Origin: Calditrichota bacterium | GTDB lineage: Bacteria > Calditrichota > Calditrichia > Calditrichales > J004 | DNA: 50,879 bases | Direction of reading: 5' to 3' | Assembly: GCA_024277115.1 (NCBI GenBank) | Contig: JAJRVW010000098.1 | Coordinates: forward strand, 1-50,879 | Part shown: positions 22,449 to 41,549 of the stretch, one piece after another | Position numbering within the stretch: position 1 is the stretch's first letter | Layout of the letters: the number at the start of each line of letters is the position of its first letter | Notes under the pieces: model-generated | Seen by the model: the letters and a program-made list of their open reading frames with translations, nothing else | Databases searched by the model: none | What the model was told of the DNA's origin: nothing | Translations under genes and position numbers: made by a program

Positions 22449-23435
22449 ATGAAAAAACCGAATTTTCCAAGCCATTTCAGGCTTAGCCATTTACCGACGC
22501 CCATCCTTACTTTTAAAAATTTGTCGATCCCCTCAGCCTATAATTTATCGATCAAACGCGATGATTTTACGGGCATCGAGTTTAGCGGCAATAAGATCAG
22601 AAAACTGGATTTTTTATTAAAGGATGCCGTAAAAAATAAGGCAAAAAGGATAGTCACCTGTGGCGGCGTACAATCCAATCATTGCAGGGCAACAGCTTTG
22701 GCGGCAAGCAGGCTTGGTTTAAAATGCAGCCTGGTTTTAAAGGGTGTTGCCCCGAAACAAATTACCGGAAATTTTTTATTATCTAAAATGAGCGGTGCAG
22801 ATATTACCTTCGTTACCGAAGAGGCGTATCAAAACAGTGCGGCAATTATGCAGGCGATTGCGGATGAAAATGACGGTCCGGCTTATATAATCCCGGAGGG
22901 TGGTTCCAACGAGGTTGGCGCGTGGGGCTATGTAAAATGTTTTTTTGAAATCCTTGATCAATTGGAACAAAAGCACACAAAGATTGACACAATTGTTGTC
23001 GCCACGGGTAGCGGCGGTACACATGCCGGGCTTTTGGCAGGGAAACTTTTAGCACAATCGGCGATTGAAATTATTTCCATAAATGTGTGTGATGATGCGG
23101 CCTTTTTTATCAATAAAATTGATGGTATTTTGCATGATTTTTCGACACGTTATAATTTGCCCTTAAAATATAACAGGGCAGACATAAAAATTATTGATGG
23201 ATTTGTAGGCGCCGGCTATGGGCAGGTTTCTGGTTGGGAAGAAAAACAACTTCTTAAATTTGTGAGCAATGAGGGTATTGTGTTTGACCCCGTTTATGGC
23301 ATCAAAGCTTGTGCCGGGATGTTAAGTTTGATGGGGCAGAATAAACTGCCGGGCAAAAATATTCTTTTTATTCACACGGGTGGAATATTTGGGGTTTTCC
23401 CTTTTAGCGAACAATTAAAACCGTTTTTTATATGA
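22449..23435 (+). CDS. D-cysteine desulfhydrase / ACC deaminase-like PLP enzyme
   Basis: 328 aa fold-II PLP enzyme. The PLP lysine is K49 in SGNKIRKLD; CGGVQSNHCRATA follows (about 71-83), and TGSGGTHAGLLAG forms the phosphate loop. ACC deaminases and D-cysteine desulfhydrases share these motifs; the bacterial DcyD type is more common in this context, but substrate is not decided by the visible residues. Its stop overlaps the mtgA start by four bases (ATGA), so both are co-translated. Confidence 0.82.
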   Translation: MKKPNFPSHFRLSHLPTPILTFKNLSIPSAYNLSIKRDDFTGIEFSGNKIRKLDFLLKDAVKNKAKRIVTCGGVQSNHCRATALAASRLGLKCSLVLKGVAPKQITGNFLLSKMSGADITFVTEEAYQNSAAIMQAIADENDGPAYIIPEGGSNEVGAWGYVKCFFEILDQLEQKHTKIDTIVVATGSGGTHAGLLAGKLLAQSAIEIISINVCDDAAFFINKIDGILHDFSTRYNLPLKYNRADIKIIDGFVGAGYGQVSGWEEKQLLKFVSNEGIVFDPVYGIKACAGMLSLMGQNKLPGKNILFIHTGGIFGVFPFSEQLKPFFI

Positions 23436-24187
23436 ACTTAAAATTAAAACAAATCTTACGGCCAAAGTACATTCTTCTTTCTCTCCTTACCGTGGGCATT
23501 TTCTCAACAGCCGTTTTTTACTTTTCCCTTCCGGATGTTGACTACCTGAAAAATGAAAATCCAAAAACCACTGCGTTGATTGAATTCCGGAAAGCACAGG
23601 CCAAAGAATCAGGTAGAAAATTTCGTCTACGCCAAAAATGGGTGCGTTTTCAACAAATTCCCGATCTGCTAAAAAAGGCCGTTCGTATTACGGAGGATTC
23701 TGATTTTTATGGCCACGATGGCATCGACTGGACCGAGCTGCAAGCCTCCATCGAGAAAAATTTAAAGAAGGGGCAACTGGCGCGTGGCGGAAGTACAATC
23801 TCGCAGCAATTGGCTAAAAATCTTTTCCTTTAAACAGAAAAGTCATTTATAAGAAAATTCCGTGAACTGTTTATCACCTTTCGTCTGGAGAAGGCTTTAA
23901 GCAAAAACCGGATTTTTCATCTTTACCTTAATATTATCGAGTTCGGTCCTGGGGTTTTTGGCGTGCAGGCGGCGTCAAAATATTATTTTAATAAAAATGT
24001 AAATAACCTGACTTTGAGCCAAATTGTCCGTTTAACGGCAGTGATTCCAAAACCTTTAAAAATCAGGGCATCAGGCAATAGCCGTTGGTTAAAATGGAAA
24101 TCACGATGGATTTTAGGCAAATTAAAACTATATAAATATATTTCTAAAGCGCAGTACGATACGGTTATTCAGGAATTTAAAAGATGA
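23432..24187 (+). pseudogene. mtgA: Monofunctional peptidoglycan transglycosylase with an in-frame TAA
   Basis: GT51 glycosyltransferase with an N-terminal membrane anchor (about 12-32). The first part includes TEDSDFYGHDGIDW (catalytic E88) and GGSTISQQLAKNLFL. Codon 134 (23831-23833) is TAA, and the family sequence continues in the same frame with TEKSFIRKF, KALSKNRIFHLYLNIIEFG and GVQAASKYYF up to 24187, giving 251 codons plus the terminal stop. No frameshift is needed. The family usually has Ser or a similar residue at the stop position, so one base change (TCA to TAA, or AAA to TAA) suffices. It may be a fresh pseudogene, a readthrough gene, or a sequence error. The upstream fragment alone lacks half the active-site fold. 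Confidence 0.85.
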
Positions 24188-28255: not shown

Positions 28256-29092
28256 ATGAATCAGTATCATAAATTGGGTGGTTCCGGGGCGTTATCTCCA
28301 GCAATTAAAAATTTATTATTGGCCAATGGGGTCATGTTTTTTCTTTCAATAGTAAACCCAACACTTGGCAATATACTTAATTATCAATTTGCATTGAGCG
28401 CCCAAGGCGTATTCGGTGAGTTTAAAATATGGCAATTGGTCAGCTATATGTTTTTACACGGTGGATTTTGGCATATCTTTTTTAATATGTTCATTTTATG
28501 GATGTTTGGAACTGAGCTGGAATATAAATGGGGCACCAATGAATTTTTAAAATACTATTTTTTAACAGGGATTGGCGGTGGGATTTTTAATCTTTTTCTT
28601 TCCGGCGAACCAACAATTGGTGCATCGGCAGCAGTTTATGGTATTATGATCGCCTACGCCATTAGTTACCCGGACCGGTTGGTTTATATCTATTTCCTTT
28701 TCCCCGTAAAAGTAAAGTATATGATGGGATTCCTGGCCCTCTTCTCATTCTTCTCTACTATTGGCCCAAATACAAGTAATATTGCCCATGCCGCCCATTT
28801 TGGTGGAATGGTGATAGGTTTTATTTACCTAAAGTGGTGGTACTTGTTTTACAAAGTAAAAGGTCTTTTCGGGGCGAATATGTCCGGATCATCCTCCGGT
28901 GACAGCGCATCTAAAATGAGCTATACACGTGGTGGCACCGGTGATAAAAGAGATTATTACCGTAAACGAATCGATGAATTGTTGGATAAAATAAATAAGG
29001 TGGGTTACCTAAACCTTACAGATGAAGAAAAGAAATTATTGGATGAAGGCAGCCGCTATTTAAGAGAACATGACAAGGAAAACCTAAACTAA
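28256..29092 (+). CDS. Rhomboid family intramembrane serine protease
   Basis: 278 aa with six predicted membrane segments between residues 17 and about 205. Catalytic S124 is in GASAAVYG (the usual GASG variant is GASA here) and H181 in AHAAHFGGMVIGF; H73/N77 in HIFFNMFILW belong to the oxyanion region. The cytoplasmic C-terminal tail (about 205-278) ends in an acidic helix (LTDEEKKLLDEGSRYL), typical of Bacteroidota-type rhomboids. AAAGAGG precedes the ATG. Its last 9 bases overlap the convergent acyltransferase gene. Substrate unknown. Confidence 0.92.
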   Translation: MNQYHKLGGSGALSPAIKNLLLANGVMFFLSIVNPTLGNILNYQFALSAQGVFGEFKIWQLVSYMFLHGGFWHIFFNMFILWMFGTELEYKWGTNEFLKYYFLTGIGGGIFNLFLSGEPTIGASAAVYGIMIAYAISYPDRLVYIYFLFPVKVKYMMGFLALFSFFSTIGPNTSNIAHAAHFGGMVIGFIYLKWWYLFYKVKGLFGANMSGSSSGDSASKMSYTRGGTGDKRDYYRKRIDELLDKINKVGYLNLTDEEKKLLDEGSRYLREHDKENLN

Positions 29093-30214
29093 ATCGTACT
29101 GATAAATCCTGTATTTCTTATACACTTTTGAACCAATCGATTCAATTGCCTTGTTCATCAAATCATTATCTTCGAGTATCCAAGACATCTCGGCGCCGGT
29201 ATAACCTTTATCGAGCGCCTTTTTTATTGATTTTATATAAAAGATTGAACCCAGACCCAAAAACTGATATTCTTTGTTCACGCCCATAATTATTGTACGT
29301 ACCGATTTAATTTTTTTGATGCCAAACAAAAGTTTAAAAATCCCTGTCGGAAATAATTTGCCATTTGGGATCCGTTCCAAAACTTCGTTTATATTGGGCA
29401 GTGTTATGCAAAACCCGATTGGTTTCCCGCCCTTTTCGGCCATGAACATCAAATCATCGTCGGCGATATCCTTTAGATCGCTGGCAACGTGGTCAATCTC
29501 CTCATCGGTAAAGGGCACAAATCCCCAGTTGCGTGTCCAGGCATTATTATAAACTTCTTTGATCAATTTAATCTCGGATTTGATTTTTTTTACACTGATG
29601 TTTCGTATGGTCAAACTGTATTTTTTGATTATTTTTGATGCGACCCGTTCCATCTTTTCGGAGATATTCTTATTGGAATGCTCGGGCGTGGTGTACCAGG
29701 CCCATAAATCTTTTGCCTTGGTATTGCCGTAATTTTCAATTAATGTAGGATAAAATTTAGGATTATGGCGCATCATAATAAAAGGTTTTGTATCAAAGCC
29801 TTCAATTAAAGTACCACACTCATCATTAGTAGATGGGTTCATCGGACCCAGCATTTTATCTTTCTTTTCAGCCTTTAGCCAATCTGCCGCCGCGTCAAAA
29901 AGGGCGTTGGCCACTTCCTGATTGTCAATACATTCAAAAAAGCCCCAAAAACCAACATTATCATTATGAAAACTGTTATGGTTTTCGTTGGTAATTGCCG
30001 CAATCCGCCCTGCAATTTTGTTGCTTTTATAGCAGAGAAAAAGTTCGATTTTAGCATGGGAGAAAAAAGGGTTTTTCTTTGTGTTCAACAAAGCTGTACG
30101 CTCCATACGCAGTGGGCTCACCCAGTTTTCGGTATGCTTGTTTGCCTGCCATTCATAGTCAATAAATAGCTTTTTTTCGATGGCTGTTTGTACGGGTACA
30201 ATTTTAATGGGCAT
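29084..30214 (-). CDS. GNAT-fold acyltransferase, candidate bacterial ceramide synthase
   Basis: 376 aa, too long for a single acetyltransferase domain. The C-terminal GNAT part has MFMAEKGGKPIGFCITLPN and IIMGVNKEYQFLGLGSIFYI, matching the acyl-CoA/ACP-binding beta4-alpha3 region. The N-terminal part has GPMNPSTNDECGTLIEGFD, a signature of a conserved family found beside serine palmitoyltransferases. In Caulobacter a GNAT-like protein (bCerS) N-acylates the sphingoid intermediate. Position 48 bases downstream of an spt-like gene makes the same role likely here. Identity is inferred from fold and context; an unrelated acyltransferase remains possible. SD AGGA precedes the ATG. Confidence 0.62.
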   Translation of the reverse strand: MPIKIVPVQTAIEKKLFIDYEWQANKHTENWVSPLRMERTALLNTKKNPFFSHAKIELFLCYKSNKIAGRIAAITNENHNSFHNDNVGFWGFFECIDNQEVANALFDAAADWLKAEKKDKMLGPMNPSTNDECGTLIEGFDTKPFIMMRHNPKFYPTLIENYGNTKAKDLWAWYTTPEHSNKNISEKMERVASKIIKKYSLTIRNISVKKIKSEIKLIKEVYNNAWTRNWGFVPFTDEEIDHVASDLKDIADDDLMFMAEKGGKPIGFCITLPNINEVLERIPNGKLFPTGIFKLLFGIKKIKSVRTIIMGVNKEYQFLGLGSIFYIKSIKKALDKGYTGAEMSWILEDNDLMNKAIESIGSKVYKKYRIYQYDLV

Positions 30215-30262
30215 TGTTATCCTGTTAATTTTTAAATTATAGCTCTGTTTGAAATAGTAGTT

Positions 30263-31450
30263 CTAAATTATTCCTATCTCTTTTCCTGTTTTACTGATTA
30301 TCTCCAAACACTGATCTAAATGTGCATCGGTGTGGGTAGACATAAAGCTGGTGCGGATCAGCGCCTGGTCCGGTGCAACGGCCGGGCTTACAACGGCATT
30401 TGTATAAATACCGGCTTCAAATAGTTTTTTCCAAAAGTAAAATGTTTTATTGTCATCCCGGATATAAATCGGGATGATCGGCGTTGTATCGCTTGCCCCG
30501 GTATCGAAACCCATATTTTGTAATTCGAGACGCATTTTATCACCGATTTGCATTAGCCTTTCCCTGCGCTGGGGTTCTTTTTCAATTATATCCAGGGCGG
30601 CAAGTGCAGCGGCGGTGGCGGCAGGTGTTGGCGATGCGCTGAAAATAAGTGAACTGGCCGTATGCTTCAGGTAACTGATTACCGTTTCCGCCCCGGTTAC
30701 AAATCCGCCTAATGAGGCCATTGATTTACTAAATGTACTCATGATAAGGTCCACATCTTTTTCCAGTTCAAAATGTTCACAACTGCCACGACCGTGTTCG
30801 CCCAATATACCAAATCCATGGGCTTCATCAATATAAATACGGGCATTATATTTTTTTGCAATGGTCACCAATCGGTCCAGGCAGACCAAATCACCCTCCA
30901 TACTAAAAACTCCGTCACTAATGATCATTTTCCCTTTAGCGGGATCGGCCTCCGCGATGATATGCTCCAGGTGGTCCATGTCATTATGATGATAGCGTTT
31001 AATTGTGGCGCCAAAACTTGCCCGTGTGCCTGTGTAGATGGAAGAATGATCAGAGCGGTCAATAAATAAAATATCGTCTTTACTGGAAAGCGTGGAAATA
31101 GCGCCAAGGTTTGTCTGGTATCCTGTACTAAAAATCAGGGCCGCTTCACGGTTCATCATTTTGGCAATTTTTTGTTCAAGTTCCAGGTGAATGTCCAGCG
31201 TACCATTTAGAAAACGGGAACCCGAGCAGCTTGTACCATATTTGCGGGTGGCCGAGATGGCAGCTTCTACAACACGTGGGTCTTGTGTTAAACCCAAATA
31301 ATTATTTGATCCGACCATAATTATTTGCCGGTTATCCATCGTTACCACTGGTCCGTCTGTACCGGAAATAGGTATAAAATATGGGAAGTTGCCAGAGTTT
31401 ATAGCTTCGGTCGCACGTGTATAATCATAGCATTTCTGAAAAATATCCAA
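30263..31450 (-). CDS. spt: Serine palmitoyltransferase-like alpha-oxoamine synthase
   Basis: 395 aa PLP enzyme of the alpha-oxoamine synthase family (KBL, BioF, HemA, SPT). PLP lysine K242 in STFSKSMASLGGF; GSRFLNGTLDIHLELE (77-92), HNDMDHLE and DGVFSMEGDL are conserved. The sequence agrees especially well with bacterial SPTs of the Bacteroidota type, including NAVVSPAVAP near the C-terminus. It would condense L-serine with an acyl-CoA/ACP to 3-keto-sphinganine. The start is TTG at 31450 with a strong GGAGG. Neighbours (GNAT and NAD-dependent epimerase-like genes) support a sphingolipid role over glycine C-acetyltransferase (kbl). Confidence 0.75.
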   Translation of the reverse strand: MDIFQKCYDYTRATEAINSGNFPYFIPISGTDGPVVTMDNRQIIMVGSNNYLGLTQDPRVVEAAISATRKYGTSCSGSRFLNGTLDIHLELEQKIAKMMNREAALIFSTGYQTNLGAISTLSSKDDILFIDRSDHSSIYTGTRASFGATIKRYHHNDMDHLEHIIAEADPAKGKMIISDGVFSMEGDLVCLDRLVTIAKKYNARIYIDEAHGFGILGEHGRGSCEHFELEKDVDLIMSTFSKSMASLGGFVTGAETVISYLKHTASSLIFSASPTPAATAAALAALDIIEKEPQRRERLMQIGDKMRLELQNMGFDTGASDTTPIIPIYIRDDNKTFYFWKKLFEAGIYTNAVVSPAVAPDQALIRTSFMSTHTDAHLDQCLEIISKTGKEIGII

Positions 31451-31808
31451 TTCGCCTCCGAAATAAAAAATAAAAACAAAAATATAATGAGCGGTCAGCT
31501 ATTCGTTTTTAACATTCAATATTTAAAAGAGTTTGTTAAAAAGTGCAAACTTTTTTAAACTCTCTGCGCTGTCGAACGACCAAATGTATACACAGCCAGA
31601 AGTGGTTTGCTGATTTAGAGATTTGGCCATTCCCGGATTATAGGGATTTACAATTGTAAGAATCCTTTTTTGTTAAGGTTGTATTATTCTTCCTGTAAAA
31701 GGTTGTTACACAAAGACAATCTAAATGGTAACCAATTCCCGGTATATAAATTGAAAAAAATCCAAAATATAAAAAGCCTGTAAAACTAATGGTAAAGGTT
31801 TGTCAATT
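31451..31808. other. Divergent control region between spt and the cerR-like gene
   Basis: 358 bases without a gene. Both flanking genes read outward, so both promoters should be here. Positions 31654-31670 (TTGTAAGAATCCTTTTT) match in reverse complement the right end of the TIR element family, a decayed copy. Confidence 0.5.
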
Positions 31809-32789
31809 ATGCGAATTCTCTTAACCGGGGCAAACGGGTTTATTGGCAGCGAAGTAGCAAAAAAGCTGATCGCTCAAAAAAACAATGTGCGCTGTTTTGT
31901 AAGGTCGTCGGGCAGTTTGCAATGGTTGGCCGATTTAAAAACAGAATTTTTTTACGGCGATCTGTTTGATAAAGTTTCCTTAAAAAATGCATTAAAAAAT
32001 ATTGATATGGTTTTTCACCTTGCCGGTGTAACAAAATCGGCCAACGCGCAAGGTTATGAGCGCGGGAATTATTTGGCCACAAAAAACCTTCTCGATACAA
32101 TCATTTAAAATAATATCAAATTAGAACGCCTCCTTTTTGTCGGTTCGCAGGCGGCTTATGGGCCAAGTACCTCGTTGGAGCCCATCGATGAAAACCAGTT
32201 TCCAAATCCGTTGACTTTTTATGGGAAGAGCAAACTTAAAGCACAGCAATATGTCGAAAAATTTAAGGACAAAATCCCAACAACGATTGTGCTCCCTTCC
32301 GCGGTTTACGGTCCACGCGACAAGGATGTGTTGGAGTTCTTTAAAACCGTGAAGCTGGGCATTATCCCACAATTAGGCGGGCGAGATAAATATGCCAGCA
32401 TGGTGCATGTGGCCGATCTGGCCGATGGAATAATCGCTGCGGCGCAAAATAAAAATACGATTGGGCAAAAATATTTTTTAACCAATCCATCACCATGCTC
32501 CTGGGGAGAAATAGCCCGCATAACTTTAAACCATTTGGGTAAAAGCGCCATCCATGTAAACCTGCCGCTTACACTCATAAATACAATTGCGGGCGTAACA
32601 GAAGTTATCGCGCGCATACGCAAGAAGCCGAATATTTTAAGCCGGCAAAAAGTAATCGAAATGAAACAGGATTTTTGGATTTGCAGCCCCAAAAAGGCCA
32701 AACAGGATTTTGGCTGGCAAGCACAAATTGATCTTGATACAGGAATTAAAGAAACATTAGGATGGTATGTCTCAGAAGGTTGGTTATAA
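31809..32789 (+). pseudogene. NAD-dependent epimerase/dehydratase, CerR (ceramide reductase)-like, with an in-frame TAA
   Basis: Extended short-chain dehydrogenase, 326 codons including an internal stop. Rossmann motif TGANGFIG (6-13), FHLAGVTKS, catalytic Y138-x3-K142 in FYGKSK, and VHVADLADGI are visible. Codon 100 (32106-32108) is TAA between DTII and NNIKLERLLFVGSQAAYGP, which continues the family sequence in the same frame, so one base substitution explains the break. The N-terminal fragment binds NAD but lacks the catalytic Tyr/Lys. Next to spt and a bCerS-like gene, the intact form would be expected to reduce the 3-keto group (CerR). Its end overlaps the methyltransferase start by 23 bases. 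Confidence 0.8.

Positions 32790-40547: not shown

Positions 40548-41549
<1,002 letters not shown>

Follow-up and report, generated by a model that had tools for sequence, protein, structure and literature searches.

Three clustered genes for probable ceramide-backbone synthesis in a Calditrichota bacterium

Three neighboring genes of a Calditrichota bacterium very likely form a locus for three-step synthesis of the ceramide backbone, and the last of the three, a reductase gene interrupted by a stop codon in the assembly, is probably intact in the organism. The genes lie in a 50,879-nucleotide stretch of DNA that was analyzed as a whole and is here called the window (contig JAJRVW010000098.1 of assembly GCA_024277115.1). 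A first-pass annotation had proposed that a serine palmitoyltransferase (SPT), a GNAT protein and an epimerase-like reductase are encoded side by side here, with spt and the GNAT gene divergent from the reductase gene. The coordinates, the strands (minus and minus versus plus) and the family placement of all three products bear out the genes and their arrangement, but the reductase as a single open frame does not stand, as it contains an in-frame TAA that had been missed. The features of the locus are as follows.

29084-30214, minus strand: bCerS-family GNAT gene, 376 amino acids, tandem GNAT; proposed ceramide synthase
30263-31450, minus strand: spt (alpha-oxoamine synthase gene), 395 amino acids, TTG start; serine palmitoyltransferase of the Bacteroidota/Sphingobacterium type, as predicted by family
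31451-31808, no strand: intergenic region without an open reading frame, between the spt-GNAT pair and the divergent reductase gene
31809-32789, plus strand: CerR-like extended SDR reductase gene, one 326-codon frame interrupted by TAA
32106-32108, plus strand: in-frame TAA of the reductase frame, codon 100, 5′ of YxxxK (codons 138-142)

The spt gene is on the upstream side of the GNAT gene and is separated from it by 48 bp. On one side the locus is bordered by proS and a rhomboid gene, on the other by a methyltransferase gene and bshC. The intergenic region presumably contains the promoters of both divergent units; consensus matches in a promoter scan of 31451-31808 were no better than those in shuffled sequence, and matches in a terminator scan were likewise at shuffle level. 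An Rfam search returned two tRNAs and nothing else.

To place the synthase, it was compared with solved structures, reference enzymes and family models. Its best match in the PDB was the Sphingobacterium SPT (3a2b/8guh, 390.8 bits), followed by Thermus KBL/BioF (264.8 bits), Sphingomonas SPT (249.4 bits) and the cysteate-C-fatty acyltransferase 28eh (198.5 bits). Identity to the 3a2b SPT was 47.7%, versus 37% to Thermus KBL/BioF, 33% to E. coli Kbl and 30% to E. coli BioF. A tree of 79 members of the family, built by a quick method with SH-aLRT as the only branch support, placed the synthase inside a 58-row clade (support 95, starred) together with 3a2b and the SPTs of E. coli BL21 and Sphingomonas, and left E. 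coli BioF, E. coli Kbl and Thermus KBL outside. Moreover, the synthase carries a PLP lysine, K242, within the motif TFSKS, a motif shared with the Sphingobacterium enzyme, and has the SPT residue at 16 of 21 diagnostic columns, defined as constant among reference SPTs and rare in BioF/Kbl. The window organism falls outside the class to which the lineage of the Sphingobacterium enzyme belongs; G101, which has an SPT 86% identical to 3a2b, shares only the domain with it. The top NCBIfam model for the synthase, by a margin of 143 bits, was NF047600 (SerpalmtaseCFB), and its score of 510.7 bits was below the model cut-off of 640 bits, a threshold that limits automatic naming and is no test of biochemistry. 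Because of that cut-off an automatic pipeline would not name the protein an SPT. We conclude that assignment of the synthase to the SPTs, and not to Kbl/BioF, is supported at the level of family.

The GNAT protein was aligned with E. coli YghO, to which it is 36% identical across 376 amino acids (E = 1.7e-80), and with Sphingomonas bCerS orthologues, to which it is 34 to 38% identical. The E. coli gene yghO is the orthologue of Caulobacter CC_1154, an acyltransferase required for ceramide, and its neighbor epi is the orthologue of CC_1164 (PMC9386255). The GNAT tree joined the window protein to YghO and the Sphingomonas proteins in a set of 37 rows (support 91, not starred) and left 11 rows of paralogues outside. 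An AlphaFold model (mean pLDDT 85.9, pTM 0.85) matched tandem GNAT structures in the PDB; at the sequence level, phmmer against the PDB gave chance matches to CodY only, and NCBIfam holds no model for the protein. The protein is the sole member of its family in the genome. Consistent with the first-pass assignment, full-length homology to YghO supports the window GNAT as a bCerS-family protein and candidate ceramide synthase, and the tree suggests that it groups with bCerS orthologues. Neither outcome that the first-pass annotation had named as refuting, a GNAT outside bCerS or a synthase grouping with Kbl/BioF, was observed. We note that YghO, by homology, works in a pathway dependent on an acyl carrier protein (ACP), unlike the window locus.

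The reductase was likewise placed by phylogeny. One clade of 38 in a tree of extended SDRs (support 98, starred) united the window protein with spt-linked SDRs from other phyla and with the CerR orthologues of E. coli BL21 and Sphingomonas; the other SDRs of the genome and a second type, SDR-B, fell outside. Support for the clade dropped to 91, not starred, with a larger and closer background that included SDR-B types from genomes without SPT. The C-terminal part of the protein matches NDUFA9 structures, a resemblance already published for CerR (PMC11087976). The proposal that the epimerase-like gene is CerR-like thus holds, and membership of the window SDR in the CerR clade of spt-linked reductases is supported. 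SDR-B from the same genus was initially a candidate for the true CerR but was set aside, as the spt-linked SDR resembles E. coli epi more closely and SDR-B lies outside the CerR clade.

The reductase frame carries TAA at codon 100. The intact copy in a genome of the same genus (G001; 67% identical) has GAG at that codon, and apart from the stop the frame is collinear with that copy and conserved to its end. One reading is that this strain carries a genuine pseudogene, such that the pathway would end at 3-ketoceramide or another reductase would perform the last step. The NAD(P) motif and the YxxxK catalytic pair are both present in the frame, but in the assembly the stop separates them and thus precedes the catalytic residues, and the genome also holds more distant extended SDRs. 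The remainder of the frame, however, shows coding constraint, as differences from the G001 copy fall 81, 45 and 163 times at the three codon positions, and among 78 listed profile matches only the window reductase has an internal stop, the other 77 listed being unbroken. Moreover, two other genes in the window are interrupted likewise, which indicates sequence errors. The GAPDH gene at 40548-41549, present in a single copy in the genome, contains an in-frame TAG at 40962-40964 that is itself probably a sequence error, and a transglycosylase-like gene at 23432-24187 contains an in-frame TAA at 23831, after which the frame continues to a TGA at 24185. Three single-codon lesions of this kind within 50 kb, including one in a core gene, are more readily explained by consensus errors than by real loss. 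We conclude that the TAA is most likely an assembly or consensus error and that the true gene is probably intact; a genuine pseudogene is improbable.

To ask whether the three genes belong together, presence and absence of SPT, GNAT and SDR were called by E-value thresholds in 146 genomes. In the 106 distant genomes, each from a different family, SPT, GNAT and SDR tended to be jointly present or jointly absent (pairwise Fisher P values of 3.6e-17, 1.5e-14 and 1.5e-15 for the three gene pairs). Among 40 fetched loci with both spt and the GNAT gene, drawn from many families, the two were same-strand neighbors less than 500 bp apart with spt upstream in 38, and a CerR-clade SDR lay within 4 kb in 28; the loci were picked for holding the genes, and the counts therefore show conservation rather than frequency in nature. 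Linkage was kept across the order, the class and many other families. Related loci (G001, G006, G007, G097, G101 and others) have the same genes in mostly the same divergent arrangement as the window, and those within the order share its proS, rhomboid, methyltransferase and bshC flanks. The three genes have been described as not close together in Bacteroidota (PMC11334938, citing earlier work). That rule does not hold for the lineages examined here, including G101, which has an SPT 86% identical to 3a2b and all three genes in a row. We conclude that the arrangement of the trio is far from chance. The pathway is already known and the gene set widespread, and the window adds a further, apparently uncultured lineage to the likely sphingolipid makers, one in which generic annotation would conceal the ceramide pathway, as the first-pass annotation pointed out. 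Tight clustering of the Spt, bCerS and CerR genes extends well beyond Proteobacteria and is also seen where the SPT is closely related to the solved Sphingobacterium enzyme.

The proposed pathway would begin with condensation of serine and a fatty-acyl thioester by SPT to give 3-ketosphinganine. The GNAT would then place a second acyl chain on the amine to form 3-ketoceramide, the 3-keto group of which would be reduced by the SDR to yield dihydroceramide. The first substrate of the synthase could instead be alanine or glycine. Acyl-CoA is the probable acyl donor of the first step, as a dedicated ACP is lacking; the Sphingobacterium-type SPT uses acyl-CoA, which fits the missing carrier. Neither an ACP gene nor an acyl-AMP-ligase gene was found in the locus, and in a profile search all PF00550 matches of the genome were on contigs other than that of the window, in agreement with the first-pass remark that no ACP gene is visible. 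We note that genome contigs C25, C147 and C252 contain many carrier-protein domains in open frames of 1,000 to 4,500 codons, which are probably NRPS/PKS clusters.

One of the nearest known systems is the cluster of E. coli BL21(DE3) and Caulobacter crescentus (spt, acpR, aasR, epi/cerR and yghO/bcerS). The window SPT, GNAT and SDR are homologous to the BL21 versions, but that cluster includes a dedicated ACP and an acyl-ACP synthetase that the window locus lacks, has a rhodobacterial-type SPT instead of the Bacteroidota/Sphingobacterium type and differs in gene order. The locus does not fit the rhodobacterial five-gene cluster with AcpR and AasR, as no ACP gene adjoins spt and the contig has no PF00550 match. 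Caulobacter entered the comparison through the orthologues published for E. coli BL21 and through relatives of those published for Sphingomonas; in a contig search with rhodobacterial SPTs, named matches were almost all from Sphingomonadales and none was from Caulobacter.

Other activities could in principle be assigned to the same genes. The synthase might be a general alpha-oxoamine synthase with BioF/Kbl activity that sits beside the GNAT gene by chance. It is the sole SPT/BioF/Kbl family member found in the genome, leaving the other jobs of the family with no other candidate, and both its identity to the E. coli enzymes and its score below the NCBIfam SPT cut-off would be compatible with such a role. 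It falls within the starred SPT clade, from which BioF/Kbl are separate, is more similar to 3a2b than to Thermus KBL/BioF in identity, and is both linked to and found together with homologues of bCerS and CerR, and we regard that explanation as very unlikely. The product could also be a capnine-type sulfonolipid made from cysteate instead of a ceramide, as enzymes of these three classes serve in sulfonolipid synthesis too (PMC11211663, PMC9304779). The synthase, however, scored about half as many bits against the solved cysteate-C-fatty acyltransferase as against the 3a2b SPT, and no gene for cysteate synthase was apparent next to the locus in the list of open reading frames; we regard a sulfonolipid product as very unlikely.

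The ceramide-backbone reading itself admits two orders of reaction. Gene content cannot separate them, and the order of the second and third steps given above is taken from work in Caulobacter (PMC11087976). In the eukaryotic order, the SDR would first reduce 3-ketosphinganine and the GNAT would then acylate sphinganine. One group has proposed this order for Caulobacter (reported in PMC11087976), and B. thetaiotaomicron BT_0972 reduces 3-ketosphinganine in vitro (PMC9278070). Deletion of Caulobacter cerR, by contrast, causes accumulation of oxidized ceramide (PMC11087976), and we consider the eukaryotic order possible but the less likely of the two. The predicted starts of the reductases bear on where reduction may occur. 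Most CerR-clade proteins, those of Sphingomonas and E. coli included, start 6 to 8 residues before GxxGxxG, too close for a signal peptide to fit; in a few, the predicted N-terminus is longer, perhaps as an artifact of start-site calling. We tentatively suggest that, if the predicted starts hold for working enzymes, reduction of the ceramide keto group in these bacteria might be cytoplasmic, at odds with the periplasmic model for Caulobacter CerR, though we think this doubtful. A tightly linked spt-bCerS-cerR locus outside Proteobacteria would make the idea testable.

Some related loci contain an additional module that is absent from the window. Genes for SDR-B, a CPBP (Rce1-like) protease and a PAP2_3 protein lie in or beside the ceramide locus in G001 (L051:9906-12538), G016 (L058:8927-11596) and G011 (L060:8264-10881). 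Part of the module is also present in a distant lineage, as CPBP and SDR-B genes are located between two bCerS-family GNAT genes in locus L242 (G106:C103:6000-12500). PAP2 homologues also adjoin CerR or bCerS genes in the distant genomes G063, G064, G092, G093, G100 and G124, and their proximity suggests a head-group enzyme. Finally, a genome of the same class as the window organism (G036:C241; L230, L178 and L279) encodes, next to a bCerS-like GNAT, a rhodobacterial-type SPT and CerR that are nearest to those of E. coli BL21, an arrangement suggestive of the pathway's other version having arrived by horizontal transfer.
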